This document shows, in pieces, positions 4,594 through 61,439 of a stretch of DNA of 64,000 bases. The stretch lies in NCBI RefSeq assembly GCF_028858725.1, contig NC_084764.1, forward strand, positions 21,193,501-21,257,500. The letters are read 5' to 3'. The notes under the pieces were generated by a model, which was not told the origin of the DNA, did no database searches, and saw only the letters and a program-made list of their open reading frames with translations. The translations under genes and the position numbers were made by a program. Numbering within the stretch: the stretch's first letter is position 1; each line of letters starts with the position of its first letter. Origin of the DNA: Colius striatus. Its lineage: Eukaryota > Chordata > Aves > Coliiformes > Coliidae.

Positions 4594-7500
4594 GTAAACC
4601 AACATCACTAGATTTTCCAATGTAGTTTTTGAAACTGCAATTGAAAACCTAACATCCAGCTAGAAATCCAAGTGTCAATGCATATTTTATTTCAGATAAT
4701 TCAAAGCATGGGTTTTTTTCATTATTGCTCCATTTACATGTTTCTCATCCACTAAAATATTTTCTTTCCTAATAAATTATATAGAACCATTAGGAATAAC
4801 ATCATTACTTACAGTCCTTTGTGTAAAGTTCTACACCTGTGTAACTACACAGAAAGAAAGACAATAAAGATGTATTGCTGTGCTACACAGTGCTGGAGAA
4901 AAATACATATGAAAACATTTTAAAAGTTAATATTGTTCTTTTAGGAAACCGATTTCCTTTGTCTCGATGGAGATAATTACTCTTATGAAAAAGAAGATAG
5001 CGCGTTACATGATCACAACGAAGAAAGTGAATATTCGTCATCTGATGCAGAATTGCAGCTGTGCGAAAATGAACTCTTCAAACATACAAGGGACTCCAGG
5101 CGAAAGGAAGAGAGAGATCAATCAGTTTCTGAAAATGATTCCAAGGAACCTCACACTCAGGAGGAGTCTGCAAGTAAAGAGTTGGATAGAAAAAATGATA
5201 ACAGAAAAGATGATACTGAAGAGCCACAAGTGCAAACCAGTCCCCTATTAGAACCTGTTCCTGCTCAGTCTGGCTGGATTGCAGGATGGTTCACCACAGG
5301 AAGTAAAAACGATGAAGAGCCCTTAAAAGCAATTACCGAATCTTTAGAAGAAAATACATACCGAGGCAGAAAAATAGCAGTAACTGCTGAAGATGACTTA
5401 CAGGAGCCAAATGATGAGGAAAAGGAACTGACATCATCTCTTTGGATGGTGGGGCTGACAGACTTTCTGTATTTTGGTGAAGAGAACGTGGATGTTGGTT
5501 TGGCATCAGAAAAAAATGATCCACAAATCCATGATGTTTCTAGTGTGCCTGAACATTCCAATAATGAGCAGGAAACAGCAGTTATGGAGTTACTGACAGA
5601 TGAACAAAAGAGTGAAAGCCAAGAATCCAAATCAAATTGGTTTAATTTGGATTTAAGTAATGTTCTTAATTTTGGCCATAATGAGAAAGATGCAATTGCT
5701 ACGGAAGACCAGCAAAGCAGAGAAACAGAGGATGAAGCAAATAAGAATGAAGAAGTGCAGACTTTAGACCAGAATGAATCACAAATGGACAAAGAATCAA
5801 AGCAGACAGTTAAAGCAGTGACAGATGATGAAGGTGAAGAAAACTATACACAAGAAATAATAGATTCAAACAGTAACATACCAAATCCTGGGGAAATACC
5901 ATCAAGGATGCATACCAAGAGCACCTCAGATAGCACAGAATCTTCTTTTGATATACTAACAAGTGATAAAGAGAAGCCAACTGAACCTTACAGTTCAGAA
6001 CAAGACTTGGTATCAGAAAATCAACTGCTGAAAATCTCTGAAGCTAAAAAGAGAAATCAGGAGTCAGAAAGTGAACACGGTCAGTCAGGTTGGTATACAA
6101 ATATCTATAATAGCTTTATTAATTATAACATGAACCCATATGGTAATCAGCAGGCACATGAATCAATTGCATCAGATCAGATTTCTTCTTCTCCTAGCCT
6201 ACCTCAGAACTGTGATCCCTCAGACACAAAAAACACAGAAGAAAAACCTGACTTAGCTGGAGAACAGAGACATTTTTTCTCTCTCAGTCATTTTGCAGAC
6301 ATACTGATGTTTCAGAGTTCAACAGCTGAAGAAGGGCAAGTGCAGAGTTTGCAAGATGATGTGTTTCTTAGTGAAGAAATCCCTCAAACTGAAAATGATG
6401 ATGAAATATTACAAGGAAATAATAACAGAGCAACGAAAGTACAAGTAAAGCAGAGAGTTAGTGAGGAGCTATCTGAAAAATATGAGGATGCAATCCAAGA
6501 AAACAATCTCTTTTCCCTACTAGTTGTGCAAAATAATGAACACAGTAATGAAAAAGCAAAACATTTTGTCAAATTAGTTAGTGAAAGTGATGTTTCACAA
6601 ATTTTACCTATTGAAACGCTAGCACAACCTGAAGTATCTCAAAGACAATATGTACCCTTGTTTGGTTATTCCAGTGCTGAAGATGATGTTTCTGAGGGCA
6701 GTGAAAGTCAGAGAAACACCGATATAAAAGATTATAGCAATGACCCCATCTCCAAAGAGTCTCAGTGTTTACCTTCAAAATTAATTTTTGAAAATACAGT
6801 GGAAATTGGAACTCATCTGCAGGGAAAATCAAAAATGGGAACAATTGAAGCAGTACAAAAGAAAGAAAATAACCTGAACACTTGTATTCAAGAATCTGTA
6901 ATTTCAGAAAACCAATTACCAGTTTATGGGCATCTACCAGGAACTGCAGATAATCATCTGGGCATGAAGAAGACCCCATGTGATAGTGAGATAGAAACAT
7001 CTGAGAAAGGCAAACCAGTTGAATGCTGTGATACAGAACAAAATTCAGCATCAAAAAGCCAGTTCAAAATGGGTAGTGGCGTAAAAGAGAAAATTTACAA
7101 ACCAGCGAATAAAAATGACCCAATGGGTTTTTATGAAAACAATATCAAAGATTCCAGTCAGGGCATTTTTAATGATGAACAGGATCAGAAATCTGAAGAG
7201 TCCCAAGAACTGACTCCAGACCAACCTTTCTCTCCTCACCCCTCATCTAGTGGCTTCAGTTTCACAGGTACCAAAACTTCTGAAGAAACTGGCCACTTGG
7301 AAGACATGTGGAGTTTCAGAATGGAAGGTAAAAACTGCTTGCTGAGAACTAAGCTTCAGTATAAGCCCTGATAAAATAGTACCAGGAAAAGAAACCCAAG
7401 GCACCTCAAGCCAGTTAGACATAACAAAATAGCTACAGTAATGTGGATATCTCCAAAGAGAATGATGTTTCTCTTCAGCTGGCAGTGCAAAATAACAAAA

Positions 7501-25500: not shown

Positions 25501-28500
25501 TCTGTTGACTTGAAACAAAATTAACCATAGTTCATGATTTTTTTTAAAGGAAGCTGACAGTAGAAGAGAGAGAACGCCTACAAAAGGAAGAAAAGCTTTC
25601 TAAAGTAGATGAAAAAATCAATCATGCTGCTGAAGAACTAAACAGCTACAGGTAATGACAGATTTTAGTTGCTATAATTACTTATTCCAAAATGAACAAA
25701 AGGCAATAGAGAATTAATACAAATGCCAGCATAAGTGAGTGTATTTTTTCCAGTTCCTTTGTCGTGTGTGTGTGTGTGTTACATGCTAGTTTGTGTGTAA
25801 TATAAGGGACTTATTGCTTAAAAAATGTGGGTATGGAAGATTATTAGGAACTTTTCTTCCATTTGAATGTCACTGGTATTGACACATTAGCATTAATAGA
25901 ATGGTAAGAAGAGGTTCTGTAATTTAGTTCCCTCTAGTCCTCTTTACTGAGAGAGAAGAGAACGCTGTAAAACAAACAAAATGTTCAGTTTTTCTATAAA
26001 TCCTAGCAAATTTCTGTTGTATGGTTATAGTATTCTATTTCTGTACCTCTAAGCTTGTCAAATAGTACTATTGTTCAGAAATTATTTGCTAAACTACTGT
26101 GATGTGGGAATATTTTCTTTAGCTGTTTTTTAACTCCTTTGCTCTGTTTTGTTTCATTAAATGTGTACCTCTGGTTCATTTCTGTGGTTTCTCGAACTAT
26201 GTCATAATTCTTTAATCTCTCCCTTCAATATTTATGGGAGCATTGGCTCTTAACTAACTGATTGTGATCAGATTGTGAGTTAATTAGATTAATCCTTTCT
26301 CTAGAGTCTAAAGTTCTTGTTGACATTTTTATTGACTTACTCAGAATGTGAACTTTGTAGAGATCTTAATTTTAAAGAGAGTATTGAAATTGCAAATATG
26401 GAGTATAGCAAAACAATGAACGTCTCTTAGGTCCACTTGTGGAGAGAGTGTAGAACCTAGAGAGGCTGTGTGCAGGGCAGCCGGCAGCAAAAGTACCCTC
26501 ATGCTTCCTGTTGTCTTGAAATACGTTAGTGCGAGTGACAGTCCCTTGGGACTGACACAGAGGCTGACTGTGGTGGCTAACAATAGTGCCAGCTCCAGAC
26601 ACACTGGTACCTTTGCTGAGCTGAGTGAGGCTGGCTGTTGGGACTCGTGGTGGATATCCTTTACCTTGGAAACAGCACAGCCAGGGAGATGATGTGTTTT
26701 TTTGGTTCTGGTCTTTTGTTTACATTCCTGTTTGTGCTTATCTAGGGCCTGCTACAATTTTTACTGTCCCAAGGACCTAAGAGACAATACTTTGGGATAA
26801 AAAAAAAATCTTCACTGTACCTTTTGTTTACTGCTGGTTTTTTTACTGGATTTAAAATTAGCTTTCTCTATATTGTATTACAATGTCATAAACCCTGATT
26901 TTGTTACAGACAGCGAGCAAAAGACCTTGAAGAAGAACTAGAAAGAACGATTCGTTCTTACCAGAATCAGGTACGTGCTTTGTCTTATTTATCATTGATG
27001 CCAAGTAGGAGGGATGTTATTGAAAGAAATACAACTTTCAGACAGGCTGTGATACTCTCTGGCTTGGTGTTGTTGGATGGCTGTTTTTTTGCTTCCCCCT
27101 TGTTCATGCCGTCTGGTTTTGACTGACTCAGTTTCATAGCAGAGATCACCAGATAGCTTTATTACAAAGTTTAAGTTTGGATGTCACATCATAAATTGTT
27201 CACACTCATCAAATTTACAAATAAAAGCACATACAGTCTTAAGTTTTCTTGTTTTAGATGAATAATGATCTAATGAATCTCTTTCACAGATTACTTCCCA
27301 TGAGAAAAAAGCTCACGATAATTGGGTAAGTTCCAAATACTGACGTTTTTGAACTTTGCAAATCTTCCTTTTCTGTGACCTGAATAGCTTCTTTATTAAT
27401 ACAAATGAACTGTATCACCTTTAGACATACCTGTCTTTTGCAGAAATACACAAAAGCATGTCAGAAATACCTCCAGCATACGAAATCTGGATACCTCTGA
27501 GCAGAGTAGAATGATGATTTTCCATAGCAATAAATCTGCTGGAATAACATGTTACCAAGTTTGTGACATTTTGCTAATAATAAAAGCTTTTGGCCTTGTT
27601 TCAATGCCATTTTAATGTTTTCTCTAGATATACTTCACTCCTTTTATCTACTAATAGGAAACATTATGTCCTGTGAGAACAGTGTGTTCCCTTGACAGCT
27701 TCCTAAGAATATTGCTACAAAATCCATTTTTATCTTTTTTTTCCCAAGCAGGAGACTTCAAAATATCTCCTGACTAATACATTCTTCAGTTGCTCAGTAT
27801 GATCTGTGTAAGACAGAATCCTGCTCAAAGCTGTGGCACCTCATGGTTGTTATTTGACATTTTTTAGCTATGTGATTTTAAAATAAAAATTTCTTGCACA
27901 AAATTTGGGACTTTAAATCTTGTACATATACTGGAGATGCTTCAAAGCATCTATAGGCAAAGAGTTTCATTTCTGCAGTTTTAAGAACCTGCAGAAAAGC
28001 CAGATAATTCCTTAAACACTTAGGTAGTAGAGCTATTTCATATGCTTTGTATCTTGTGAAAATATAGTCCACATCCTTCAGATAGGATAAAGATGTCTTG
28101 GATCTTAGCTCTATCACATTTAAGAAGTCCTTAATAAATAGCAATATCTAAGCATCTAATTTTTGTCCTTTTCCAAAGCTGACGGCCCGAGCAGCTGAAA
28201 GACACCTCAATGATATAAAAAAAGAAAATGCACATAACAGACAAAAGTAAGTGCAATCCTGATCTAGTTCTAAACAAATGCACTTGGGCATGTGAGTATG
28301 TTTTGGATTTATGCAATTTGGTGTTTTCTAGACCTCTTAGTCAAGTGTAGCCCGAACAGGGCAGAGATAGGACAGTGTCCATTGGAGTTCTGAAAGACAG
28401 GAAGTAATTTGATCATTCTTATAATAATAACACGCAAGGAAGTAAGAACTTAAGAACTTTGTGGAGTATGGAAATATTTCAGGAGACCAGCAGAATGTAG

Positions 28501-31500
28501 TACTAGAACTCAAAGGTTTTGGGGATTTGATGTTTGTTTGATTTTAAATGTGTATCAACTAGGTGTCATGGTTACTTAATCACAGAATCTTAAGGGTTGG
28601 AAGGGACCTTGAAAGATCACCCAGTCCAACCCCCCTGCCAGAGCAGGACCACCTAGAGTAGGTCACACAGGAACTCGTCCAGGTCGGTTTTGAATGTCTC
28701 CAGAGAAGGAGGCTCCACAACCCATCTGGGCAGCCTGTTCCAGTGCTCCATCACACTCACAGGCAAGAAGTTTTTTCTTGTATTTCTTTGGAACCTCTTA
28801 TGTTCCAGCTTATACCCATATCCCTCTTGTCCTATTATTTGACATCATTGAGAACAGCCTGGCTCCATCCTCCTGACACTGGCCCTTTATGTATTTGTAA
28901 ACATTAATGGCATTTACAGCTTCTCTCAGAAGTTAATAGTGACCTATCAGATCACATAGTAGTGGCCAGGAGAAACCTTTAGATGTGAATTTAACTAATA
29001 AATGGAATGTTACTCATGTGTAATGTCATGTTAGAAATTGTGACACCTAACGTGCTGCTTTGACTTTTGAATTACAGTTTAAATACAGCAGCACAGAGAA
29101 ATACTTTCAGGAATTTTTAGTTCAATGTTCCATCTTTTTTTCGATTTAGGACACTTTCTTAACCCTTGAAGCAGAAAGTCTAGCAGTAAATAGTGCAGTC
29201 TAGTAGAACTTTAGCACTTCACAGTATTTACTCCTTTTCCATTGTTCATTTGCAGATTAACTGAAGCAGAATTCAGACTTGACCTTTTAGAAAAAGATCC
29301 TTATGCTCTTGATGTTCCAGTGAGACCATTTGGCAGAGGTACAGTATTGAATTGTAAAACGGAGCCTAATTGGTTCGGTTTATGGTTTTGTCTCCCAAGA
29401 CCTCCCATATGTAATTATTTGAGAACTATGTCTTAGCCATGTGTGTGTACAAACAAGTCCTTTAAAAAAATATTTGGGTCATAAGTGAATCTAGGTCATA
29501 CCAAATATTTTGTTGAAACTAAGAGTGTTGATGAGAGTAGACTGGGAATATGATGTGCGTGGTAACTAGAGCACAATTTTAATTTCACTTACACATTCAA
29601 TTTTAAACTTCACCTGAGAAGTTCATTACTTTGTGCAGTTTGCTAAACTAAATATTGTGAACTTGAGTATTTTGTTTTAACTGTTCCAGAGCATTCCCCA
29701 TATGGACCCTCACCAATGGGCCGGCCTTCATCTGAAACAAGAGCTTTTCTTTCCCCTCCAACTTTATTGGAGGGTCCTTTAAGGCTTTCACCTATGCTTC
29801 CAGGTGGAGGAGGAGGAAGAGGTACAATTCTTAAACTTGAAAATGTATCTATTCTGGATTTCTCTCTCCTCTTCTATAAACCTGTCACACCTTTTCCTCT
29901 TGCTGGTGACAAAAAAGTATTAAGACAACCAATTCAATATGAACAGATGATTGGATGAACTTTTCCTGTTTTCCAGCTTGTTTCTAAAAGCTGTCTGATG
30001 TGTAACAATACAGTGGAAAATGTAGCTGCATTAGTAGGTTAGTCAGTGGATTCACTTTAGAAGCATGGTTTGAGAAAATTGAAAAGCCCAACTTAATCAG
30101 TCTTGGTTTATTTCTCAGACAAATAGGACTCTGCTGAAATAAACTTGTGATTTTGAAGTAAACAAGAGTCACTGGTTTTCTGAAGAAAGAGTACTGCCAC
30201 ATCCATCTTGTTGGTCTACAGTCAGTGAGAGGAGGAGGAGGGCACCTGCATTGTCAAAATGTCACAGTGTTATTTGGGGTCATGATACTAGAAAGTTACT
30301 GATTCAGTAAATTGTTTTCTTCCCTTTGCTCTAACTTTGAGGCAGTCATTATACCCGGAGACAGTTTTGTCTCTAGTGATAAAAGGGACCAGGAAGGCTG
30401 TGTGTAAGGAGTAAAATTCAGAGAGTAAGTGAAAGCAAGCCACAGTGTAAGGGAAGAAATAACCCTGTTCCTTAATGTTCTTGAAGCTGCTGGAAATAGT
30501 GTTAGGGAAATGCTAGAGTGGAGTTCAGCATCTGTTAACAGGTAATAAAGAAGCTATTTAATTTACTACTGTGGTTACACCTGTTGAGACCTGTACTTAT
30601 GTAGTAGGAAATATGTCTAAATATCTCTTCTGTTAGGATTTCACTAATCAACATTGATTTTTTTTTTTTTTTTACAGACTAGCACGAACTGTTTCTTACC
30701 TTTTTGGAAAAAACATATCCCAGTGCATGTGAAAGTTGATTAATTTTTCAAGTCAGAAAAGTTTGAGATTGGATTGTTCAACTATAGCTATAAAACATAC
30801 AATCAAAATTGTACTTGACAATTTATTTGTATAGAAATGAAACTTCTTGAGGTGTCCAATGTGTCTTTAAATTGTCTCTCAGCTGTTGCTGCTGAGGTTG
30901 AGCAGAACCTGGATTTCAGGATACAGTGTTAGCAAGTAAAGAGGCTATGCAAAGGCCTAACTACTGCCCATTTCACAATGGAACACTGATATAACCTGGG
31001 CAGATTAAAGAAATGGTGTGTTAATGCCAGCTACAGAGCAATTATAGTGCTCATCTCACTTTGCATGGTATAGGAAATGGCTTCAAATTTTAGGTTGAAT
31101 TTTGGGATAGAGAATGATACCAGAACTCAGTATTTTTGTCATTTTTCAGACCAAAACTATTTTAAAGGAAGTTTGCAACCTAAAATCACTGTTACAGTTT
31201 CTCTTGCACTTGGATATGTGTTGACTTGGTCTTCTCTTTTTTTTCTTGAATAAAGAATTAGAAAGAACCATAAGAATATTGGATATGATGTGGATATTTT
31301 CTTACGACATTGACTTTCAGTGTGCTAAGTTTTAGCTTGATTAGCAGCAGGTTTTTTAGCAATGAGACAATTTATCGTGAGGGCACTAGTCTCTCGGATT
31401 CAAATGAACTGAAACTTTTTATTCTTCTTTAAAAAACAGTTGCAGGTACTCTAGGTTTTGCCCTCTTGTTGAATTTTGGCATTGCAAACAAACCTTTTAA

Positions 31501-34500: not shown

Positions 34501-37500
34501 GGAAACAGGGTTTTGGACACCCTTGCTGCCAGCATGTAGCAGGTCATTAAGCATGTGTTGCTTTTTAGAGGTACATTATTTCAATGAACTTGGGTGAGTA
34601 TTTGTAAAGACAGCAAAAAACATCCAAATTAAAAAAACCCCACCCCATCCAGCACATAGCATCTGACTTCAGCACAGCAACATATCTCACAGGGCTGAAA
34701 TCCAGGCTCCAGCTCTGAGTGAATGAGCTACACTTCCTCAGCAAGGTGATCTAACTTTAAAGTGAGCAACATAAACACACTTTCCTAAGCTGGGCTGGCT
34801 AAATCTACAAAAACTATCAGCTTGAGGCAGGTACCTGGAACAGGATACAAGAAACTGTGTGGGAAAAGCTGCAAGTTTATAATTCAAGGGCATGTATTGG
34901 AAAAATACTCGGCCGTAGCTTTGTGTTCCTCAGTGCTCTTTCAGCCTGCCCGCAGAACAAGTGCTTGCTACCTTTTTATTTTGTACTGCCTTTCTCCTTG
35001 CCTGCATATTGTGATTTGAGAAAAAAGACTGAAGTCAGTGGTGGAGAGGAGGGCAGCACCGAGTAACTTCTTGAACTTTTCCATACAGATGGACAGGCAT
35101 CTTCAGAGAACAGCCCACGACCAGAACCAAGCGGAAACGAGATGAAAGATCATTCTAACTTTGGCGTAAGTAACTGGACAGAAACTTGATGTAAAGAAGC
35201 TGTGAGCAAAATGTGTCTCTAGTACAGTGCTCACGTCGTATTGCATGATGCAGTCCAAATTATAAAACTAGGTGGATACTTCTATCACAGCATTTACTGT
35301 CCTGTGAATTAATTCTGATGAATGACTAGTATCATACCTGCTGAAAAACATTGCAACCCAAAAGGAGAACCTATGGTCAGTCTAATGGTGCGTGCACATA
35401 GCCTTGCTCGGGTCTGTGCCGTAGCTGAGGCAGTTGGAGCTGGCTGTTAGCTAGTGTTGGAGTGGGCCTGATGGCACTGGGGCTGTTGCCTCTCCTCAGC
35501 CTGTGTTGGTTGTGTTGCAGGGCTCACTACCTGATCCGTCACTGGCACCTGAAAGCGAAGCCATGGGTTTGGGCTTTGCTCCTCCGCCTTTCCCTCCAGT
35601 GAGACCCCCGCTGCTGCCTGTGGATCCCAGAGCTCCTTTCACGAGGCGAGGGCCGCCCTTCCCACCGCCCCCTCCCGCAGCTGTGTATGGAGCACGTGAC
35701 TGCTTCCCGGGGCAAGAGCTGGGGCTGCTGCGCCCGCCGCTGCCGCGTACGTAGCACTGGGGATGATGGCCACTGCTGCATACGTAGCACTGGGGATGAT
35801 GGCCACTGTTGCGTACGTAGCACTGGGGATGATGGCCACTGCCGCCTACGTAGCACTGGGGATGATGGCCACTGTTGCGTACGTAGCACTGGGGATGATG
35901 GCCACTGCCGCCTACGTAGCACTGGGGATGATGGCCACTGCCACATACGTAGCACTGGGGATGATGGCCACTGTTGCGTACGTAGCACTGGGGATGATGG
36001 CCACTGCCACATACGTAGCACTGGGGATGATGGCCACTGTTGCGTACGTAGCACTGGGGATGACGGCCACTGTTGCGTACGTAGCACTGGGGATGATGGC
36101 CACTGTTGCGTACGTAGCACTGGGGATGATGGCCACTGCCGCATACGTAGCACTGGGGATGACGGCCGCTGCCGCATACGTAGCACTGGGGATGACGGCC
36201 GCTGCCGCATACGTAGCACTGGGGATGACGGCCGCTGCCGCGTACGTAGCACTGGGGATGACGGCCGCTGCCGCGTACGTAGCACTGGGGATGACGGCCG
36301 CTGCCGCGTACGTAGCACTGGGGATGACGGCCGCTGCCGCGTACGTAGCACTGGGGATGACGGCCGCTGCCGCGTACGTAGCACTGGGGATGACGGCCGC
36401 TGCCGCGTACGTAGCACTGGGGATGACGGCCGCTGCCGCGTACGTAGCACTGGGGATGACGGCCGCTGCCGCGTACGTAGCACTGGGGATGACGGCCGCT
36501 GCCGCGTACGTAGCACTGGGGATGACGGCCGCTGCCGCGTACGTAGCACTGGGGATGACGGCCGCTGCCGCGTACGTAGCACTGGGGATGACGGCCGCTG
36601 CCGCATACGTAGCACTGGGGATGACGGCCACTGCCGCATACGTAGCACTGGGGATGACGGCCGCTGCCGCATACGTAGCACTGGGGATGACGGCCGCTGC
36701 CGCATACGTAGCACTGGGGGTGACGGCCACTGCCGCATACGTAGCACTGGGGGTGACGGCCACTGCCGCATACGTAGCACTGGGGATGATGGCCACTGTT
36801 GCGGACGTAGCACTGGGGGTGACGGCCACTGCCACGTACGTAGCACTGGAGGTGACGGCCACTGAGGCCACGTATGTAGCACTGGGGGTGACAGCCACCA
36901 CTGCCATGTGCAGGGGGGAAGGTGCCACACTGGGTGGTCTTTGGCACCTGTCTGCACATCCCACTGCTCAGTTCAGCTAACAGCGACCATCGTTGCTGAC
37001 TGAGGGGAAGGAAGTGTGTTGTACACTTCCTTTTTCACAGTTGCTTGTATTGGTAGAGTTTTTACACATACTAGCTTTGGCTGGAAAATAGTCTGCACCC
37101 ACTGTCCAGCATTTAAAGGATTCTTTGCTGACAGAGGAAAACAAGCTTATCTCAATTCTTTTCCTCCTATGAGGTTGCATCATACTTGATTCTTAAAGTT
37201 TCCACCTTTAGCATTGAGGTATGCTAATACCTGTGCAGAGACATGCATTTGGGACGGGTTTGCCTTGGGGTTTTCATTAGTGCAGCAAGATGTAAGAATC
37301 GGAGTGAAAGGCTTCTTTCTCCCTCGTGCTCTTCTTGGATTAACCCATGAAGGTCTATGCCACTTATCTGTCAAAGTGGCTGCAAGGTAGAAGAGCCAGA
37401 GGTGGCTGCAGCACACCAGAGCTGGCAGTGGTGGCAGCAGCCCATTCACAGGCAGTGACCGGCTGCTGCCCTGACCCCATAACTACCAGGGTCTCCCTTG

Positions 37501-37764
37501 TTACTGTTTAGGCAGGCTACCGCTTGAGCAATAAGGTATGTGGAGTAGGAGGAGCAGGTATGTCTCTGTTGTTGAGAGTGATACTAACTGGACTGCTCTG
37601 ATTCTCTCACAGTAAGAAATCCATTTCCATTGAGACCTTATCCTCACTATCCACCTCAACGACCTGGATTTTTGCCTCCACCACCTCCTCCTGAAAACAG
37701 AAGTGAGCTGCCTCAGTCAAATCCATCAGCTGCAGAACCACCAGAAGCACAGCGGGAGGATTGA
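1636..37764 (+). CDS. MIA2: MIA2 (TALI/cTAGE5), ER exit site cargo receptor; 29 coding exons
   Basis: MIA2 belongs to the TANGO1 family. Its proteins sit at ER exit sites, capture bulky luminal cargo (lipoproteins, collagen) and bind Sec23/Sec24 and Sec12 on the cytosolic side. I traced 29 exons with consensus acceptors and GT donors; every phase agrees and the joined frame is 5361 nt (1786 residues), ending in TGA at 37762-37764. Order of parts: signal peptide (1 to about 22), MIA-type SH3 (about 30-118), acidic luminal domain (to about 976), membrane-associated segment (977-1004), transmembrane helix (about 1026-1045), coiled coils (about 1050-1469) and a proline-rich tail (1470-1786). As I recall, human MIA2 is about 1412 residues; the excess here is mostly in luminal exon 4. 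The start codon opens a hydrophobic leader followed by the conserved KKCGD-type SH3 start. An internal promoter gives a short isoform. MIA3, the paralogue, is less likely because coiled-coil and tail blocks match MIA2/cTAGE5 closely. Confidence 0.95.
1751..4944 (+). other. MIA2 introns 1-3
   Basis: The intronic stretches 1751-3140, 3275-4506 and 4594-4944 are AT-rich and hold no RNA gene, recognised transposon or convincing extra exon. Open frames seen here (for example the overlapping minus-strand frames at 2834-3092) are short and lack coding signals. Confidence 0.6.
4945..7327 (+). CDS. MIA2: MIA2 exon 4: large acidic luminal domain
   Basis: This single exon (2383 nt, about 794 codons) follows TTTTAG and is read in frame from exon 3; the fourth SH3-domain cysteine is at its start. 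It encodes an acidic, Ser/Glu-rich, probably disordered luminal region. Hydrophobic W/F-centred modules recur inside it: [12 protein letters not shown] (from 5269), [16 protein letters not shown] (from 5437), [15 protein letters not shown] (from 5629), [15 protein letters not shown] (from 6082), [15 protein letters not shown] (from 6268) and [16 protein letters not shown] (from 6502). RGRKIAV near 5360 matches a conserved block of human MIA2. The donor chosen is ATGGAAG|GTAAAA at 7327, which leaves the phase required by exon 5. If it is not used, translation runs 14 codons further to a stop at 7369-7371, giving a possible secreted or luminal short isoform. Confidence 0.88.
7440..9198 (+). pseudogene. 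Decayed coding-like tail of MIA2 exon 4
   Basis: The intron after exon 4 contains a series of coding-like open blocks in shifting frames, separated by stops. At 7440-7541, [18 protein letters not shown] resembles exon 4's [18 protein letters not shown] (about 6484-6540). Others are 7881-8000 ([15 protein letters not shown]), 8249-8365 ([15 protein letters not shown]), 8577-8813, a frame-shifted continuation at about 8766-8910 ([13 protein letters not shown]), and 8923-9198, which is open for 91 codons without a useful ATG. Composition is acidic and rich in Glu, Ser and Lys, as in exon 4. The likeliest reading is a formerly longer or tandemly duplicated luminal exon that has lost its frame. 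Chance open frames in AT-rich intron, or a rare alternative exon, remain possible. Confidence 0.45.
8047..8173 (+). repeat. GGAA/GAAA microsatellite
   Basis: A purine-only tract starts with AGGGAAAGAAGGAAAG, continues as about 14 uninterrupted GGAA/AAGG units and ends in AAAGAAAG and AAAGATAAAG variants. It lies in MIA2 intron 4, inside the decayed coding-like stretch. A shorter GGAA run is at about 10527-10548 in intron 6. Confidence 0.95.
9199..10032 (+). other. Remainder of MIA2 intron 4
   Basis: I see no gene, recognisable transposon or RNA here. The sequence is AT-rich and ends in the acceptor TTCGCAG of exon 5. Confidence 0.6.
10033..10460 (+). CDS. MIA2: MIA2 exons 5-6: end of luminal region and membrane-associated segment
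   Basis: Exon 5 is 10033-10242 (acceptor CGCAG, donor GTAAGT). It completes the Gly codon from exon 4 and encodes an acidic linker ending [12 protein letters not shown]. Exon 6 is 10375-10460 (donor GTAAGA) and encodes [20 protein letters not shown] then SAVMGIIKK, an amphipathic or hydrophobic stretch just before the true transmembrane helix. In TANGO1-family proteins a membrane-associated segment precedes the transmembrane helix, so this is the likely counterpart. Phases 1 and 0 fit both neighbours. Confidence 0.88.
10461..11640 (+). other. MIA2 intron 6, 5' part
   Basis: This AT-rich intron sequence lies before the internal CpG island. Apart from a short GGAA tract (about 10527-10548) and poly-A runs I see nothing functional. 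Confidence 0.55.
11988..11995 (-). promoter_or_regulatory. Candidate UPRE (XBP1/ATF6-type) element
   Basis: CCACGTCA on the + strand is the exact complement of TGACGTGG, the unfolded-protein-response element core bound by XBP1 and ATF6. It sits about 510 bp upstream of the internal MIA2 start codon. A UPR input would suit a component of the ER export machinery. An 8-bp match in a GC-rich island can arise by chance. Confidence 0.35.
12501..12614 (+). CDS. MIA2: MIA2 alternative first exon 1b (cTAGE5 isoform start)
   Basis: ATGGCTGCTGGCGGC begins a 38-codon exon ending GMALEEARR with donor AGG|GTGAGT at 12614. It joins exon 7 in phase 0, giving [19 protein letters not shown]. Human cTAGE5 has the same arrangement: a short GC-rich first exon ending in LEELRR followed by VVAALPEGMRP. 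The predicted protein is about 819 residues and lacks the SH3 and luminal domain but keeps the transmembrane helix, coiled coils and proline-rich tail, so it would act only on the cytosolic side (Sec12 and Sec23 binding). The start context CGGTAAGATGG has G at +4 and A at -2 to -3. Confidence 0.88.
13551..13682 (+). CDS. MIA2: MIA2 exon 7: transmembrane helix, shared by both isoforms
   Basis: The exon follows TTTTTCAG and ends at GTAAGT. It encodes [20 protein letters not shown] followed by a hydrophobic helix [18 protein letters not shown] and the basic/polar stop RSYQS. This is the TANGO1-family signature PEDMRPG.DLYG..W before the transmembrane span. It is the first exon common to the long (signal-peptide) and short (exon 1b) forms. 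Phase is 0 on both sides (44 codons). Confidence 0.95.
13683..20944 (+). other. Introns among MIA2 exons 7-14
   Basis: The longest gene-free stretches are 13683-15561, 16198-16914 and 17915-20944. I see no RNA gene or recognisable transposon in them. A 92-codon antisense open frame at 20104-19826 has no recognised homology and is not called. Confidence 0.5.
15562..28246 (+). CDS. MIA2: MIA2 exons 8-22: coiled-coil region
   Basis: Exons are 15562-15583 (a 22-nt micro-exon, VRSRLYVG), 15697-15785, 16126-16197, 16915-17025, 17334-17405, 17810-17914, 20945-21067, 21629-21752, 22513-22559, 22745-22835, 23564-23702, 25550-25651, 26910-26970, 27290-27325 and 28179-28246. Every phase agrees. They encode about 420 residues of heptad-rich coiled coil, including [20 protein letters not shown], the conserved [31 protein letters not shown] and ENAHNRQK. 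In cTAGE5/MIA2 this region mediates homo- and hetero-oligomerisation with TANGO1 and recruitment of Sec12. Exon 15 carries an acidic insert ([14 protein letters not shown]) between the two coiled-coil halves. The donor of exon 18 (AG|GTGCTG) is weak. Confidence 0.92.
21068..28178 (+). other. Introns among MIA2 exons 14-22
   Basis: Longer introns are 21068-21628, 21753-22512, 22836-23563, 23703-25549, 25652-26909, 26971-27289 and 27326-28178. A T20 run is at 21308-21327 and a short GT run is near 25765-25779. No other feature is supported. Confidence 0.5.
28579..28928 (-). mobile_element. CR1 LINE 3' fragment
   Basis: The segment starts CACAGAATCTTAAGGGTTGG, the reverse complement of the CR1 3' terminus, and continues through the typical GGAAGGGACCTT, CCAGTCCAACCCCC, CTGGGCAGCCTGTTCCAGTG and TATTTGTAAACATTAATGGC blocks. 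It is a 5'-truncated, non-coding CR1 copy in MIA2 intron 22, antisense to the gene. CR1 is the dominant LINE of birds. Confidence 0.92.
29256..37764 (+). CDS. MIA2: MIA2 exons 23-29: proline-rich COPII-binding tail
   Basis: Exons are 29256-29338, 29690-29821, 31687-31836, 33176-33307, 35089-35165, 35521-35746 and 37613-37764. Conserved blocks include [84 protein letters not shown] and [15 protein letters not shown]-containing tails of this family bind Sec23 at ER exit sites and recruit the inner COPII coat. The exon 28 donor is CTGCCGC|GTACGT; it leaves C, and exon 29 supplies TA to make a Leu codon ([11 protein letters not shown]), which aligns with the human FAMRN.YPPR region. Reading past the donor hits TAG two codons later. 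Stop TGA is at 37762-37764. Confidence 0.92.
29339..35520 (+). other. Introns among MIA2 exons 23-28
   Basis: Introns are 29339-29689, 29822-31686, 31837-33175, 33308-35088 and 35166-35520. I see no RNA gene or clear transposon. A poly-T/TTTACAG acceptor-like site near 30660-30677 is followed by a stop-rich sequence and is not called as an exon. Confidence 0.5.
35751..36908 (+). repeat. 33-bp minisatellite (35 copies) starting at the MIA2 exon 28 splice donor
   Basis: The unit is GTAGCACTGGGGATGACGGC followed by CGCTGCCGCGTAC, 33 bp. The first GTAGCACTGG is at 35751 and the 34th at 36840, exactly 33 x 33 bp later, so there is no indel across 34 copies; a 35th at 36876 follows after 36 bp. 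Most units contain the junction sequence CTGCCGC|GTACGTAG or a close variant, that is, a copy of the exon 28 end and its 5' splice site. About 11 central units are identical (about 36236-36590), while flanking units vary at a few sites (GATGAT/GATGAC, CACTGTTGCG, CGCTGCCGCA). The core unit has five CpGs and a TACGTA palindrome. The array lies within intron 28 and is not a CRISPR: there are no spacers. Confidence 0.97.
36909..37612 (+). other. MIA2 intron 28, 3' part
   Basis: Ordinary intron sequence lies after the minisatellite, ending in the acceptor ATTCTCTCACAG of exon 29. I see nothing else supportable. Confidence 0.6.
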
Positions 37765-38130
37765 TAGTCATGTGAACAACACACTGAACCCTTTCTGGCA
37801 TTGTCCCTTACATTAAGTAACTGTTGTTACTTAGATATATATATAAGCTACTTTGCTCAAATTGAAGCTTAATAGAAAATTCTCAGGATAGTATTTTGTA
37901 AATAAAGAATGAAATAATTATTAATTTTGTGAATACGTGATTTCCACTGTACAGTAGTCATTTTAATTTAAGTATTTCTAACTTGAGTATAAAATTAAAT
38001 CATGTGAACTGTATTTTAAAAGTCCAGCTGCTTTGTCCTTGTTGAGCTGTACAGGGAATCTCTGCATGCCAAAAGTGATGTTTGCTGCTTTACAAACAGA
38101 ATGTGAAAACAGATTGAGATGGTTAATAAA
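37765..38130 (+). other. MIA2: MIA2 3' UTR with two poly(A) signals
   Basis: AATAAA occurs at 37901-37906, about 140 bp after the stop, and again at 38125-38130. The first would give a very short 3' UTR and the second a longer one. Neither cleavage site can be confirmed from sequence alone. Confidence 0.65.
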
Positions 38131-43887: not shown

Positions 43888-46800
43888 CTGGAGGGGGAAA
43901 CAAAGACAGTTGCTCAGTCATGCTATAGGGCATTTTTTTTCACCGAAGTACTTAATACCAGAACATCTCAACATCCTTCCCAACCTATTTTACCATCTTC
44001 CATCTGGCAGAATCCTGCTACTGCACAGTTGGGTTTTTTTGGGTCCAAGTGGTAAAGCTCCATTTCATATTCCAAATAAAGTACCAAAAATATTTCCGGT
44101 AGCTTGGCCAAGCTTCTCGACATCTCATTTTTTCACCATGTGTAGATGGAGATCTTTACTCCAAGTTCAGTTATATCTACAATTTCAAACATCGTGTGAT
44201 CTACTTTGCAGTATAAATAGAATGGAAAAATGAGTAATCAATTATTTTAAGTGAATTTAAAAAAGGGCTGTTCTAAAACTGTGCTTGTCCTGGTTTTGTT
44301 GCATTAGAGGCAGACTTAAAAAAAACAAACCTCAAAACAAGTGAAAAACTACCAACACACACACCCCAGAAGCCTCTCCTAGTAATGGGTGACACCGGTA
44401 CCAAAAAAAACCCCCAACAACTACAGACATATCATTACCTGAGATTAAACAGAATTACCAAGTTCCCCTCTCTTCCCAGCAGTGTGTACTGGCATCCTTC
44501 TGTAAAAACACCTACTCCCCAGTTACCTGTCAGTTTTTGGTACCCTGGCTAAGGCAAATGCTGGGCTTCACCAGATGCAAACCGCAGAGGATCTGGGAAC
44601 TCCCCTTTTTGAGACCTCTGCCAAGTCAGGCCTTCCACTGCTCAGGGAAAGGCTCATTTCTGCCTCCATCCTAATTCCCACAGGTGCTGAGGCTCTTGGC
44701 GAGATGCCCACTTAGATTGCAACGAAATCTGCATTCTGCCCAGTATCTGAACTGGGAAAGTTAAGCTGATGAGAAATATAGACTAACTGTGGTCTGGCCT
44801 TCTGCAACGCAGTGAATGTGATATATCTCAAAATAAGACAGCCAGTTGAAGAACAAAGAAACCTAGTGTCAAAGGAAGGAAGAAAGGAGAATTTTTCTTT
44901 CCGCTTTACTTTTTCCTACTCTTTGTTCTGTTTCATGTAAGCGTGTTGCTTTTGGAGGTTTTTAACTAAGAAGCCTGCACATGTCTGTATGGTTTCTTTC
45001 TGGCACATTAACCATTAGGACAGCATGAATTCCCACAATTTTCATCTGCTGATGCTTCACCTCCAGCACAACTGTCCACAGAAGATGAAGCATGACACTA
45101 AACTCAACAAAAATTCCACCTGTAGCAGGGCATTCCTCTGTCAAGAGACAAAAGAGCTCACAGCACCTTCCAGATATCTTGATTGTAAAGGAACTTAAAG
45201 AAATCCTTGACAGCAAGTGTGAGAATAAAGGGAATAACAACTGCAGTTCAGCCCAGTACCATCCTTGTGGGTCAGGTATACGGATGGCTTTTGCTGTAAC
45301 TTTTCATGGTCACATCCTCCATACTCTGGAACAAACAGGTTATTCTCAATTTAATCTTACTTTAAATTAAGTCTCCTTTCAGAAGTTTTTCCCAAAGTTT
45401 CAGTAACCTTCCAGCAGCGGAAAAGCCTCAGCCCAGCTAAGCATTCCCAGGAAACAGGGAATGATCTCCTTCCTACAAGTATCACTGAACAAACTCACCT
45501 TGGGCACACTGTAATTTGTTCTTCATTGCTATTAAAAACTTCAACTTCAGTTTTGCTCAGGGACAGACTAAAACTACAGAGCTCGTAGGTAACACAGTAT
45601 GTTTACAAGAGCTCGTAGGTAACACAGTATGTTTACAAGAGCTCGTAGGTAACACAGTATGTTTACAACATGACGTCTTGAAAATCCACATGAAGTGCCT
45701 TTCTCTAAAGGAGGAAAAAACGCAAAAAGGCTTCAGCCCTCAAAGATGGGCTGTGCTTTTTACTGTCAGTACCAGAGGAGACAACTCTGCCTATCCTACT
45801 GTCCCCATCCCAACCACGCTCTCCACACCCTTCCTTCTTTCTGCAAGAATGGATTTAATATCCTCCAGTCAGCCCTTCTCTGCTCTTGAAGAGGCTACCT
45901 TGGTGGAACAGATGACATTGCCTCCCACAAAGGACAGAAGGGACTGTCCTTAGGGTATGTTTTCCCCCTCCTCCTTTCATCAGTGAAAACAGGAAGACAA
46001 AATTATACTTGAATCAAAGCCTTTTCCAGAGCAAACCAATAGCAGAAGAGGGAAAACAAACAAACCAACCACCCGGAAAAAGTATTGGAAACTGAAGAAT
46101 AACCACTTCAGGAGACAGAAGAAACCGGAGCATTTACATATAAAGTGAATCACGGTACCATTTTATTCCTGAAGGAGGCTTGACAGTATCATGAAAAATG
46201 GAGCCAGAAACCATTCTTTGATAAACAAGCATGAGGCTAAGACACTGTTGAAACATCACAGCACTATAGATTTTCCCTCCTAGTCACATTCTTCTCACAG
46301 TTGCTACTCTGGAAGAAAGATGCTTATGCTACAGTGCCAGAGAGGTTCTATCCATAGCTTAAAAACAGATGAGGAGGTATTTGTAAGCACCTTAGTTCGC
46401 TTCTACTGTAAAGAGAGGAGAAAAGAAGGGAGAAGAACTGGAATCTCAGCATCAGAGCAAGGGTGGCATTTGGCCATCCCCTCCAGGTACACACAGCATC
46501 TCTCCAAAGAAAGACAACACCACAACAACCATTTGCAGGGGCAGAACGCGCTTTCTAGCAAATACAGCAGGACCTTCTGACTTCAACCAACAGAAATCTC
46601 ATTGTACAACCTTCACTGCTGAAGGACTGGAGATTTAACTCCTCCAAGCACTCCGAGGGAATGAATTCATTCGTATGCAATGCAATACAGAGTCATCACT
46701 TTACTCCCTCATGCAATGGGGAACTTGGTCTTGGCAAACTGATTCCAGCACTAACAAAAATAACTGTTCCACGTCATTTCAGTTTCAGACACTTTAAAAT

Positions 46801-58800: not shown

Positions 58801-60550
58801 GACCAGACTATGACTCAGTTGCAGACAGTTTTCCAAAGGCATCCACAAGGTTTAATTCAACCTAAAGGTATCCTGAAGTACTTGCAGTTTGACTTCCTCT
58901 CTCCCTACCCCAGTAAGTGAAGTTATAAGCACACAGTGGAGAAGTCACAGTAACCATTTCCTATCCTAAAATCTGCATGGCTTTCCAAACCTAATAACCT
59001 AACTGTAATACTCTTGCTTTCCTGTCCCAGGTGTTGACTAGAGGCCATATGTTACGATGTCTGATTATTATCTTTTTAAAAGATATTTATCTTAAACACA
59101 CCCAGACATGGTAAAGAGAACGAAAGTATTTTCAATTCAAAGAACCCCAACCTGAGGAAAATATCTAACCTGCCGAAGTAAGCCTGTGAAAAAAAAGGAA
59201 CTAAACAGATCCTAAGTCCAAACCACAGGAAAAGATTTCTACTCTTCAAATTCAATTTGGTCAAGAAAGTCCTATGTCTGAAGTTTGGGTTGTTTTTTTT
59301 GTTTTCAATTAACAAACATTAAAACGTTCTCCTAGTTAAAACTGAGTCAAATCTCAGTTTAACAGGTAGCACTAGAGCAGGCACAAAAGCTCTGCTTTTC
59401 GGCGGCAAACTCCCTCACAGCTGGAAGCTGAGAGTATTTTATTGAGGAGGCATTCCATCCCTGTCCATTCAGAAAAACAAAACAAAAGAAAACCCCAAAC
59501 CAAAACAAACCACCACTGCTGTAATTTTAAGTCTCCTACCAGCTTCTCGTGCCATTATTTTTCAGTCACGCACAAGAGGTGTAAAGCTTGTCCGTAGTTA
59601 GATTTATACTTTAAAGTGGAAAAGGTGCCTCGTTAGGCACCAAACTCAAACACCCAGCTCATACTTGCTCCATCGGGGCTCCATTTCCCTTCTTCAAAGG
59701 GCGAAGAAGTGTTTATTATTGCAGCTGTACCTGTTTTGCATACTGACTAGCCACTTGCCAGCTAAACGCCTGCGTTCATATTCTCCATCAGAATACAGAA
59801 CACGACAAAAATTAGGTAGTTGGAAGCAATGCGCCTCCGCTTCTGCTCGACTCGCAGCCGCAGAAGACTCCCTCGGCTTACCCAAGCCGGCCGTGCGGCT
59901 CCTCTCCCTCCCAACCCCCGCCCGTGGCTCCGGGGGCGCAGCCCCAGGCCAGCGCAGCCGACCCCCGGGCGCCGCGGAAGCGGACGAGAGAGATGGGCCC
60001 CGGCGCCGCGCGGCCCAGGAGGGTATCCGGGGCTCGGCCCGCCCCCGCCGCCTACCCTCACGCTCGCACCGGGCGAGGCGCGGAGAGGCCCTGCCCCCGC
60101 CCCGGGCCCGGGCCGGCGGCAGTACCTGTTGTTGCGGACGCTGCTCAGGACGCACAGCACCAGCTCCAGGTAGGTCCTCAGCAGGTCGAGCCAGCGCGGG
60201 CACAGCGGCGGCGCCTCCTCGTCGGCCCCCGCCGCGGCGCTCTCGCCCGCCGCCACCGCCCCCCCGCCGCCGCCGCTGGGGTAGTTGTCGGCGGCGAACT
60301 GTACGCGGAGCTCACGGACGAACCAGCCGCACTTGCGCATGAGGAATTCGAGGCGCGGGCGCTCGGCCGGCGAGACGCGGAGGCTGAGGCGGAGGCGCGG
60401 CCAGAGGGCCGGGTAGAAGAGGCACTCCCGCCAGTGCGAGCAGGCGGCCGAGGCCCGCAGCCGGTCGGGGCCCGCCAGGAAGGAGAAGATGTGGACCACC
60501 AGTTCGCTGGGCAGGGAGCCGGCGCCTACCGCCTCCCCGCACACCGACAT
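43616..60550 (-). CDS. FBXO33: FBXO33, F-box substrate adaptor of an SCF ubiquitin ligase; 4 exons
   Basis: Exons on the minus strand are 60550-60126, 54274-54164, 48156-47471 and 43887-43616; phases agree and sum to 1494 nt (497 residues plus stop). The N-terminus has an F-box ([20 protein letters not shown], then [13 protein letters not shown] and YPALWPRL, residues about 11-58), which binds SKP1. The rest matches FBXO33 throughout, with blocks such as [55 protein letters not shown] and [19 protein letters not shown], probably a leucine-rich-repeat-like substrate-binding fold. FBXO33 has been reported to direct YB-1 for ubiquitination. Human FBXO33 is, as I recall, about 555 residues with a longer N-terminus; here I start at [11 protein letters not shown], just before the F-box. 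The frame is open for 155 codons upstream, so a more distal start is possible. Confidence 0.94.
43888..47470 (-). other. FBXO33 intron 3
   Basis: The intron holds a perfect 3 x 30-bp tandem repeat at 45579-45668 (listed separately) and a T/A run near 46861-46873. I see no other feature. Confidence 0.55.
45579..45668. repeat. Perfect 3 x 30-bp tandem repeat
   Basis: GAGCTCGTAGGTAACACAGT plus ATGTTTACAA is repeated three times with no differences. Perfect identity suggests a recent expansion. It lies in FBXO33 intron 3. The + strand frame reads [10 protein letters not shown] three times, but this is not a gene. Confidence 0.97.
47471..48156 (-). CDS. FBXO33: FBXO33 exon 3 (main substrate-binding region)
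   Basis: The acceptor is TTACTTGCAG and the donor is CATG|GTAGGT. This exon (686 nt) encodes [20 protein letters not shown] through [18 protein letters not shown]. It has leucine-spaced segments ([28 protein letters not shown]) typical of the LRR-like part of FBXO33, and leaves phase 1 for exon 4. Confidence 0.93.
48157..54163 (-). other. FBXO33 intron 2
   Basis: This 6-kb intron contains one CR1 fragment (49634-50280) and a T run at about 50587-50601. Nothing else is supported; the open frame at 52353-52772 (139 codons) has no recognised domain. Confidence 0.55.
49634..50280 (-). mobile_element. CR1 LINE fragment including the end of ORF2
   Basis: It begins with AATCACAGAATAATCAGGGC (complement of the CR1 3' end) and runs through CACACCCTCCCTGGGCAGCC to the coding part. 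On the minus strand, 50279-50067 encodes [20 protein letters not shown] followed by [12 protein letters not shown], the conserved C-terminus of the CR1 reverse-transcriptase ORF. The copy is 5'-truncated and frame-broken. It carries an internal direct duplication of CATAAGCATGAATAAGGT at about 49949-49984. It has the same orientation as FBXO33. Confidence 0.93.
54164..54274 (-). CDS. FBXO33: FBXO33 exon 2
   Basis: The acceptor is TTTCACAG and the donor is CA|GTAAGT. The 111-nt exon encodes [20 protein letters not shown] then [17 protein letters not shown], matching human FBXO33 almost residue for residue. Phases 2 and 2 fit exons 1 and 3. Confidence 0.93.
54275..60125 (-). other. FBXO33 intron 1
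   Basis: This 5.85-kb AT-rich intron holds no recognised transposon or RNA gene. Short open frames (56013-56402, 57993-58277, + strand) have no identifiable domain. The part beyond about 59850 belongs to the CpG island. Confidence 0.55.
60126..60550 (-). CDS. FBXO33: FBXO33 exon 1 with F-box
   Basis: The ATG at 60550 opens [20 protein letters not shown], continuing into the F-box and [21 protein letters not shown] Gly/Ala-rich insert ([20 protein letters not shown]) precedes [20 protein letters not shown]. The donor is AACAG|GTACTG. The exon is very GC-rich, being inside the promoter CpG island. The ATG was chosen because homology to the human protein begins just before the F-box; 155 open codons upstream lack recognisable conservation. 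Confidence 0.88.
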
Positions 60551-61439
60551 GCCTGGCGCCGGCCCGAGCCCCGCTGCTACTGCTGCGGCGGCCCCGGCCT
60601 CGCCTCCGGCTCCTGCGACAAAAACAACAACATCAATGACAAGGCGGAGGGGGCGGGCGCCGGCCGGGACGCTGCCGCCGCCGGGGGAGGGGGGACGAGG
60701 GGCGGAGCGAGCTCTACCAAGGGGCCGGCGCGGCGGGGAGGGCAGAGGTGGGCCGCACCCCCGCCCGCGCCGCACCTCGCGCTCCTTACCGCTCAGCCTG
60801 TGGAGGGGGGCGAGGACAGCGCCGCGGGCGCCGCGCTCTTGCTCCTGCGAGGCGAGAAGGGCCGCCGCGGCCGAGGGAGGAGGAATTACCCTGTGGGGAG
60901 AAATGGAACTTGCCACCGGTCGCCTGGGAGGCGGCGCTAGCGCAGCTGGCTCCGCGACGGGAGGCTGGTCGCTAAGCGCTCCGGGCCGGTAGCGGCGCCC
61001 GGGAGCTCCCAGCACATCGCGTGGGCCTCGCGTCCCTTCCCCCCGGCGGCTCCTCCGCCCTAACGCAGTGCGGCGGGAGGCCCGGGACCGGGGCGAGGCT
61101 CCGTAGCCAGCTTCCCCGCGGGCTCCGCGGCCGGCGGAACCGCCGCCGCTCCCTGTGGAAGCGCCAGGCGCTGTGGGGGGACCCCCGGGGGAAACCCCTC
61201 CACCGAGCGGTTACTGTTCCAGCTTTGGGGCGGCAGGAAATAGTACGGAGCCTGCCCCGGGGTAGGCGGGGGGTGCCCGCGGAGGCTCCTCGACAAGAGC
61301 CAGTGCTGACGCGGGCCGGCCCCAGGGAGGCGGCGCTGCCGGGCAACGGCCGCCGGTAGCGCACGGGGCCTCCGCTCGGAGCCCGGGAGCGGCCGGAAGT
61401 GGGGGCGGTGGGCGGAAGCGGCGCTCCTCACCGCGCTCA

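Follow-up and report, generated by a model that had tools for sequence, protein, structure and literature searches.

The MIA2 locus and its minisatellite

The window, the whole 64,000-nucleotide stretch of Colius striatus DNA analyzed here, contains MIA2/cTAGE5 on the + strand. Using the human MIA2/cTAGE5 protein as a tblastn probe against the window, we obtained 18 rows with E <= 0.001; all map to the + strand and run collinearly with the protein between 13542 and 37758. Two weaker rows that kept this order (E 0.044 and 0.66) were also taken in, and the other rows listed, with E values of 0.009 or worse, were left out as low-complexity. The ordered exons match the protein and include its proline-rich end. 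One or more short exons that should lie between 33307 and 35521 escaped detection; the labels exon 28 (for 35521-35746) and exon 29 are the numbering of a first-pass annotation only. Features are listed in Table 1.

Joining 35521-35746 to 37613-37764 keeps the frame across a phase 1 junction (...RPPLP-L-RNPFPL...), and the last exon adds 50 residues, counted from the junction codon, with one six-proline run among them. Homology and spliced translation back the phase 1 junction, as well as the gene and the 50-residue last exon proposed in the first-pass annotation. The acceptor of the last intron is pyrimidine-rich, and TACTAAC, a branch-point-like motif, occurs four times on the + strand of the window, once before this acceptor. 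The joined protein of the two C-terminal exons had no Pfam match, and no RNA family matched the window at gathering thresholds. We also looked for a MIA2 retrocopy that could serve as a splice fossil. A whole-genome search (E <= 0.001, 24 candidates scored) matched only these two MIA2 exons themselves and thus gave no retrocopy; the reach of this search was limited, as the tail of the MIA3 paralog was likewise not found.

Other features of the window lie outside this region. An ORF on the - strand (59765-61207) encodes an F-box domain at about 60.4-60.5 kb (PF12937, E 6.7e-12) and is probably FBXO33, the neighbor of MIA2 in human. Between this gene and MIA2 lies a perfect tandem repeat (30 bp x 3.0, 100% matches, 45578-45668, Tandem Repeats Finder). 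An 808-codon ORF without a Pfam match (4945-7368), upstream of the cTAGE5 part, may be the large exon of the long MIA2 (TALI) form.

Table 1. Positions in the window of the array, the flanking MIA2 exons and the sites discussed in the text; a slash marks the cut at a donor
Feature	Position	Strand	Basis
33-bp minisatellite, consensus GCCACTGCCGCGTACGTAGCACTGGGGATGACG	35736..36898	+	Tandem Repeats Finder and unit list
Penultimate MIA2 coding exon among those located, 226 nt, phase 1 at its 3′ end	35521..35746	+	tblastn, 58.9% identity over 35524-35739; AG before 35521
Exon-side 11 bp of the repeat unit, GCCGCTGCCGC	35736..35746	+	11/11 identical to the end of the central unit
Candidate native donor CGC/GTACGT, cut after 35746	35744..35752	+	Phase and position agree with homology
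In-frame TAG, met if a later donor copy is used or the intron is kept	35752..35754	+	Frame reading
Run of 11 units that all read GTACGTAGCACTGGGGATGACGGCCGCTGCCGC, taken to be the array's youngest part	36242..36604	+	Unit comparison
GAG/GTGACG, cut after 36851	36849..36857	+	Best array site in the vertebrate matrix, 2.36
TACTAAC, perfect branch-point-like motif upstream of the last acceptor	37582..37588	+	Motif scan
Last MIA2 coding exon, stop at 37762-37764	37613..37764	+	tblastn, 51.9% identity; spliced translation

The last coding intron starts within a tandem array of 35.2 copies of a 33-bp unit (94% matches, score 1802), by far the top score among the 12 Tandem Repeats Finder rows for the window. 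This period and copy number are those of a minisatellite (tandem units of about 10-100 bp in many copies). A 33-bp array had been placed at 35740-36908; the array stands, with its boundaries moved to those given by Tandem Repeats Finder. Cutting units from 35747 yields 34 in register, and a 35th, displaced by 3 bases, carries CAC/GTATGT at 36871.

With the array as query, we found a single such locus in the 1.21-Gb, 191-contig genome. A 15-bp core of the unit had 34 exact genome matches, 32 in the array and one each on contigs C1 and C6, and examination of the surroundings placed neither stray copy inside a tandem array. By our own arithmetic, about two chance matches of this core are expected in 1.2 Gb; the reversed core, used as a control pattern, had none. 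Four single matches in viral contigs were judged to be chance. Long ORFs cross the array (35496-37034) on the + strand (420 and 426 codons, not in the MIA2 frame) and the - strand (512, 477, and 351 codons). A 33-bp period is divisible by 3 and so leaves frames open in either direction, and we did not take these ORFs as genes.

The first 11 bp of the array lie inside the coding exon and match the unit at 11 of 11 positions, with identity ending at base -12. When the exon was shuffled, its last 11-mer was present in the array in 0 of 20000 shuffles. Because unit and exon end are identical over 11 bp and the identity stops at -12, the duplicated segment most likely comprised 11 exonic and 22 intronic bp. 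These data bear out two earlier proposals, that the array starts at the edge of a coding exon and that it grew by duplicating a segment spanning that edge. The array both overlaps and repeats the exon/intron edge, the true exon end resting on homology. We conclude that it is a minisatellite overlapping a splice donor, that it is real, and that it lies in the right gene and at the right exon edge.

Conservation and strength of the copied donors

To ask how many units still carry a donor, we compared the 34 in-register units. Of these, 19 (copy 1 among them) keep a GT where the donor should be, and 12, again with copy 1, keep the exact edge, CTGCCGC/GTACGTAG. The 15 units without the GT have AT (12), CT (2), or GG (1). 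Thus, the first-pass statement that the donor recurs in most of 35 units was too strong. At +1 the 34 units have 20 G, 12 A, and 2 C, and only column 26 of the 33 has a larger minority (18 A, 16 G). The +1 G is therefore at one of the two most variable columns of the unit, changed mostly by CpG decay. As a result, we see no sign that the copies have been kept as donors. The unit sequences suggest that nothing points to selection for them, although one allele cannot exclude it.

We scored donors in three ways, in place of MaxEntScan: with a vertebrate matrix, with a matrix self-trained on the 18 other MIA2 donors (each scored leaving itself out), and by U1 pairing. In the vertebrate matrix, CGC/GTACGT scored -1.4, less than any of 16 other MIA2 donors; of the 3409 + strand GTs in the window, 19.7% scored at least as high. 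In the self-trained matrix it scored -1.39, the lowest of the 19 donors located, and 20.3% of GTs equaled or exceeded it; the narrowest margin was to the donor at 13682 (-1.15). Its -1 base, C, occurs in none of the 18 other donors, 16 of which have G. The best unconstrained U1 duplex reached -3.1 kcal/mol, compared to -5.7 to -11.2 for 16 other MIA2 donors. Strict in-register pairing gave -2.2 kcal/mol, between the donors at 29821 (-1.9) and 21752 (-2.3), and the 7 of 11 consensus matches equal those of several accepted MIA2 donors. The MIA2 intron at 26970 has the same GTACGT start in CAG/GTACGT, a far better donor. Each unit also contains a second GT, TAC/GTAGCA, which scored -5.4 and was not counted as a donor.

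Some sites near the 3′ end of the array did better. Those at 36835, 36851, and 36871 outscore copy 1 in both matrices, and those at 36719, 36752, 36818, and 36887 do so in the vertebrate matrix only (36887 was scored with that matrix alone). GAG/GTGACG at 36851 is nevertheless below 17 of 18 MIA2 donors in the self-trained matrix. Beyond the array, the best GT sites are at 37535 (5.61) and 37557 (5.73).

These scores bear on where the exon ends. An earlier end after 35695, at CAC/GTGACT, would shorten the exon by 17 codons, stay in phase 1 and in frame, and use a site that the vertebrate matrix ranks higher (-0.13, compared to -1.4 at 35746). Alternatively, the array could be kept as the 3′ part of the mRNA of a shorter MIA2, as a stop is completed 8 nt past the edge. 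We consider an exon end of either kind very unlikely. The alignment to human MIA2 extends over the greater part of these 17 codons, U1 pairing is worse at 35695 (-0.5, compared to -2.2), and the last exon is open and similar to its human counterpart. Moreover, there is no AATAAA or ATTAAA between 35747 and 37900, the first being at 37901, which argues against an array-retaining mRNA.

We next considered accessibility, as the energy needed to open each 9-base site. Copy 1 required 5.0 kcal/mol and the 18 other in-register GT copies 3.9-8.4, such that 17 of these 18 are predicted to be less open than copy 1; the mean for the 18 other MIA2 donors was 3.2 kcal/mol. In shuffled arrays (n = 100), CGC sites averaged 5.2 (5-95% range 3.3-7.4) and TGC sites 4.7 (2.6-7.2). 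Only two copies, the TGC copies 3 (7.7) and 11 (8.4), exceeded the shuffled range; copy 34 (CAC) had no control of its own. Since nearly all copies fall within the range of the controls, the low predicted openness is mainly a matter of composition. Folding predictions showed no unusual structure compared to shuffles (z +0.80 for a three-unit stretch, +0.88 for the copy 1 stretch).

Predicted effects on MIA2 mRNA and protein

The MIA2 frame reads CGT ACG TAG after the first donor, as had been noted, and the same TAG would be met in frame from every later donor copy, so the early stop predicted for all of them holds. Copy 2 lacks the GT, and the next GT at the donor position is that of copy 3 (35812). 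From copy 3 onward, the stop would lie at least 58 nt before the final exon junction. Under the usual rule for nonsense-mediated decay, a stop more than 50-55 nt upstream of the last junction marks an mRNA for degradation. Because of this distance, use of distal copies would mainly lower MIA2 mRNA levels, and their RNAs are expected to be decayed rather than to yield a stable short protein. The isoforms lacking the last 50 residues that were proposed in the first pass would thus have the predicted stop, but a stable short protein from them is not expected. Such a protein could more readily come from retention of the whole intron, which leaves no later junction and would end in RPPLPRT.

The last 50 residues had also been described as including PPP motifs expected to bind Sec23. 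In TANGO1 and cTAGE5, PPP motifs bind Sec23 at its gelsolin domain (PMC7594496, citing Ma and Goldberg, 2016). The proline run is there, yet the tail holds only one of the four PPP runs in the five C-terminal MIA2 exons that we read.

In the first-pass model, the copies are true competing 5′ splice sites that give MIA2 isoforms without the last 50 residues; the same competition might instead give a tunable share of decayed mRNA. The retained GTs and exact edges counted above speak for this model, and a human precedent exists in the 6-16/IFI6 minisatellite, as its title indicates. The candidate native donor, however, has the lowest score among the 19 MIA2 donors, the +1 G is among the two most variable columns, the later copies have a lower predicted accessibility than copy 1, and their products are predicted to decay. 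With 15 of 34 units lacking the GT and about 20% of the 3409 GTs scoring as well as the donor, dozens of competing donors are unlikely.

Runs of G within the units could act in the opposite direction. Each unit has GGGG at +13 to +16, and if such runs help a donor upstream of them and hinder one downstream, the array would favor copy 1: splicing at copy 1 leaves every run in the intron, whereas splicing at a distal copy places the preceding runs in the exon. There are 34 runs of at least 4 G in 35747-36898, and the first 150 nt of the intron contain 5, compared to 0-2 in 16 other MIA2 introns. In one report (PMC12062376), the weak donor of TP53 exon 6 needs downstream G-runs, and G-runs act as enhancers downstream of a donor and as silencers within an exon. 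However, the stretch has a GC content of 0.59, compared to 0.27-0.42 in the 16 other introns, such that runs are expected from composition alone. There is no sign that they are kept better than other non-CpG columns, and the exon 35521-35746 itself has 5. We therefore think this effect improbable; by analogy with the published systems, it would steer splicing toward copy 1, contrary to the first-pass view.

A further possibility, which we rate no higher, is that dozens of weak U1 sites and G-runs jointly set use of the first donor versus retention or distal donors. If this were so, retention would yield a short, decay-proof MIA2 without the last PPP run, distal donors would yield decayed mRNA, and MIA2 output, perhaps including secretion of bulky cargo, would vary with the length of the allele.

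The reading that we favor, and which is probably correct, is that an expanding GC-rich minisatellite captured a weak exon edge, and that the copied donors are more a by-product of its growth than a working switch. A 33-bp segment, comprising the last 11 bp of the MIA2 exon and the first 22 bp of the last coding intron, would have been duplicated in tandem. As the exon edge lies inside the unit, the donor was duplicated along with every added unit. That donor was probably already weak when the array formed, because the central block and copy 1 share the form CGC/GTACGT. The older, outer units would then have decayed, mainly at CpGs, and 15 of the 34 lost their GT. The central block of 11 units would have expanded more recently.

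The differences among units are consistent with this history. Differences from the central unit number 70 across the 34 units, of which 53 are CpG transitions, and of the five CpGs in the unit, four are changed by such transitions in 11 to 18 of 34 units (35747-36868). The fifth, in TACGTA, is changed in none; we do not take this as selection, as there are few independent events. The 11 identical middle units and the CpG-dominated differences fit old, decayed flanks and a young core, and the copy number was seen in one assembly, where the identical units suggest recent expansion.

Judging from the phase, the homology and the open reading of the last exon, native splicing most likely still joins copy 1 to 37613. 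Use of the distal copies is most likely low, with their RNAs degraded. The main effect of the array would be a longer intron; any influence of copy number on splicing efficiency or on intron retention would be small at most. This by-product reading needs no new mechanism. Against it, context can make a weak donor efficient, the spare GT copies are numerous (18, or 19 if the displaced one is counted), though each is weak, and the better-scoring sites at the 3′ end mean that the far end of the array might be used. In addition, the strict U1 pairing of the candidate donor is within the range of other MIA2 donors.

Comparison with known systems

If the copies are used, this would be a further vertebrate minisatellite that multiplies donors, beside that of 6-16/IFI6, in a gene for COPII-dependent export, and length alleles would form a natural series for testing spliceosomal choice among numerous weak donors of equal strength. 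If the copies are unused, which is likelier, the array still shows a growing repeat that took in an exon edge while the downstream exon was not obviously lost. The MIA2 array is not mentioned in the titles and abstract beginnings returned by a full-text literature search that leaves most subscription papers outside.

At least one human minisatellite that overlaps a splice donor is already in print. According to the title of Turri, Cuin and Porter (1995, Nucleic Acids Res 23:1854), multiple splice donors are supplied by the minisatellite of the human interferon-induced gene 6-16 (IFI6, G1P3), and this work is cited elsewhere for a minisatellite that interferes with the splicing of a gene. The units of the MIA2 array likewise carry a donor; the 6-16 title reports donors in a transcript, and the MIA2 array is known from genome sequence.

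The two arrays differ in their units. The unit of 6-16/IFI6 is reportedly a 12-bp donor-like element at an exon edge. The MIA2 unit is instead 33 bp long, with a poor donor whose GT is lacking in 15 of 34 cases.

The MIA2 array also resembles the variable internal tandem repeats at exon-intron boundaries of genes in human segmental duplications, whose units are about 30 bp and may alter exon/intron structure (PMC2812944). Those cases are recent primate paralogs that average about 4 units; their repeats are coding or form introns, and transcripts back them. The MIA2 case is one gene with 35 units, read from DNA. As in TP53 exon 6 (PMC12062376), several G-runs come after a weak donor, and a better donor lies farther along the intron. 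In TP53 the G-run effect comes from minigenes, whereas MIA2 shares the layout only, confounded by GC content.
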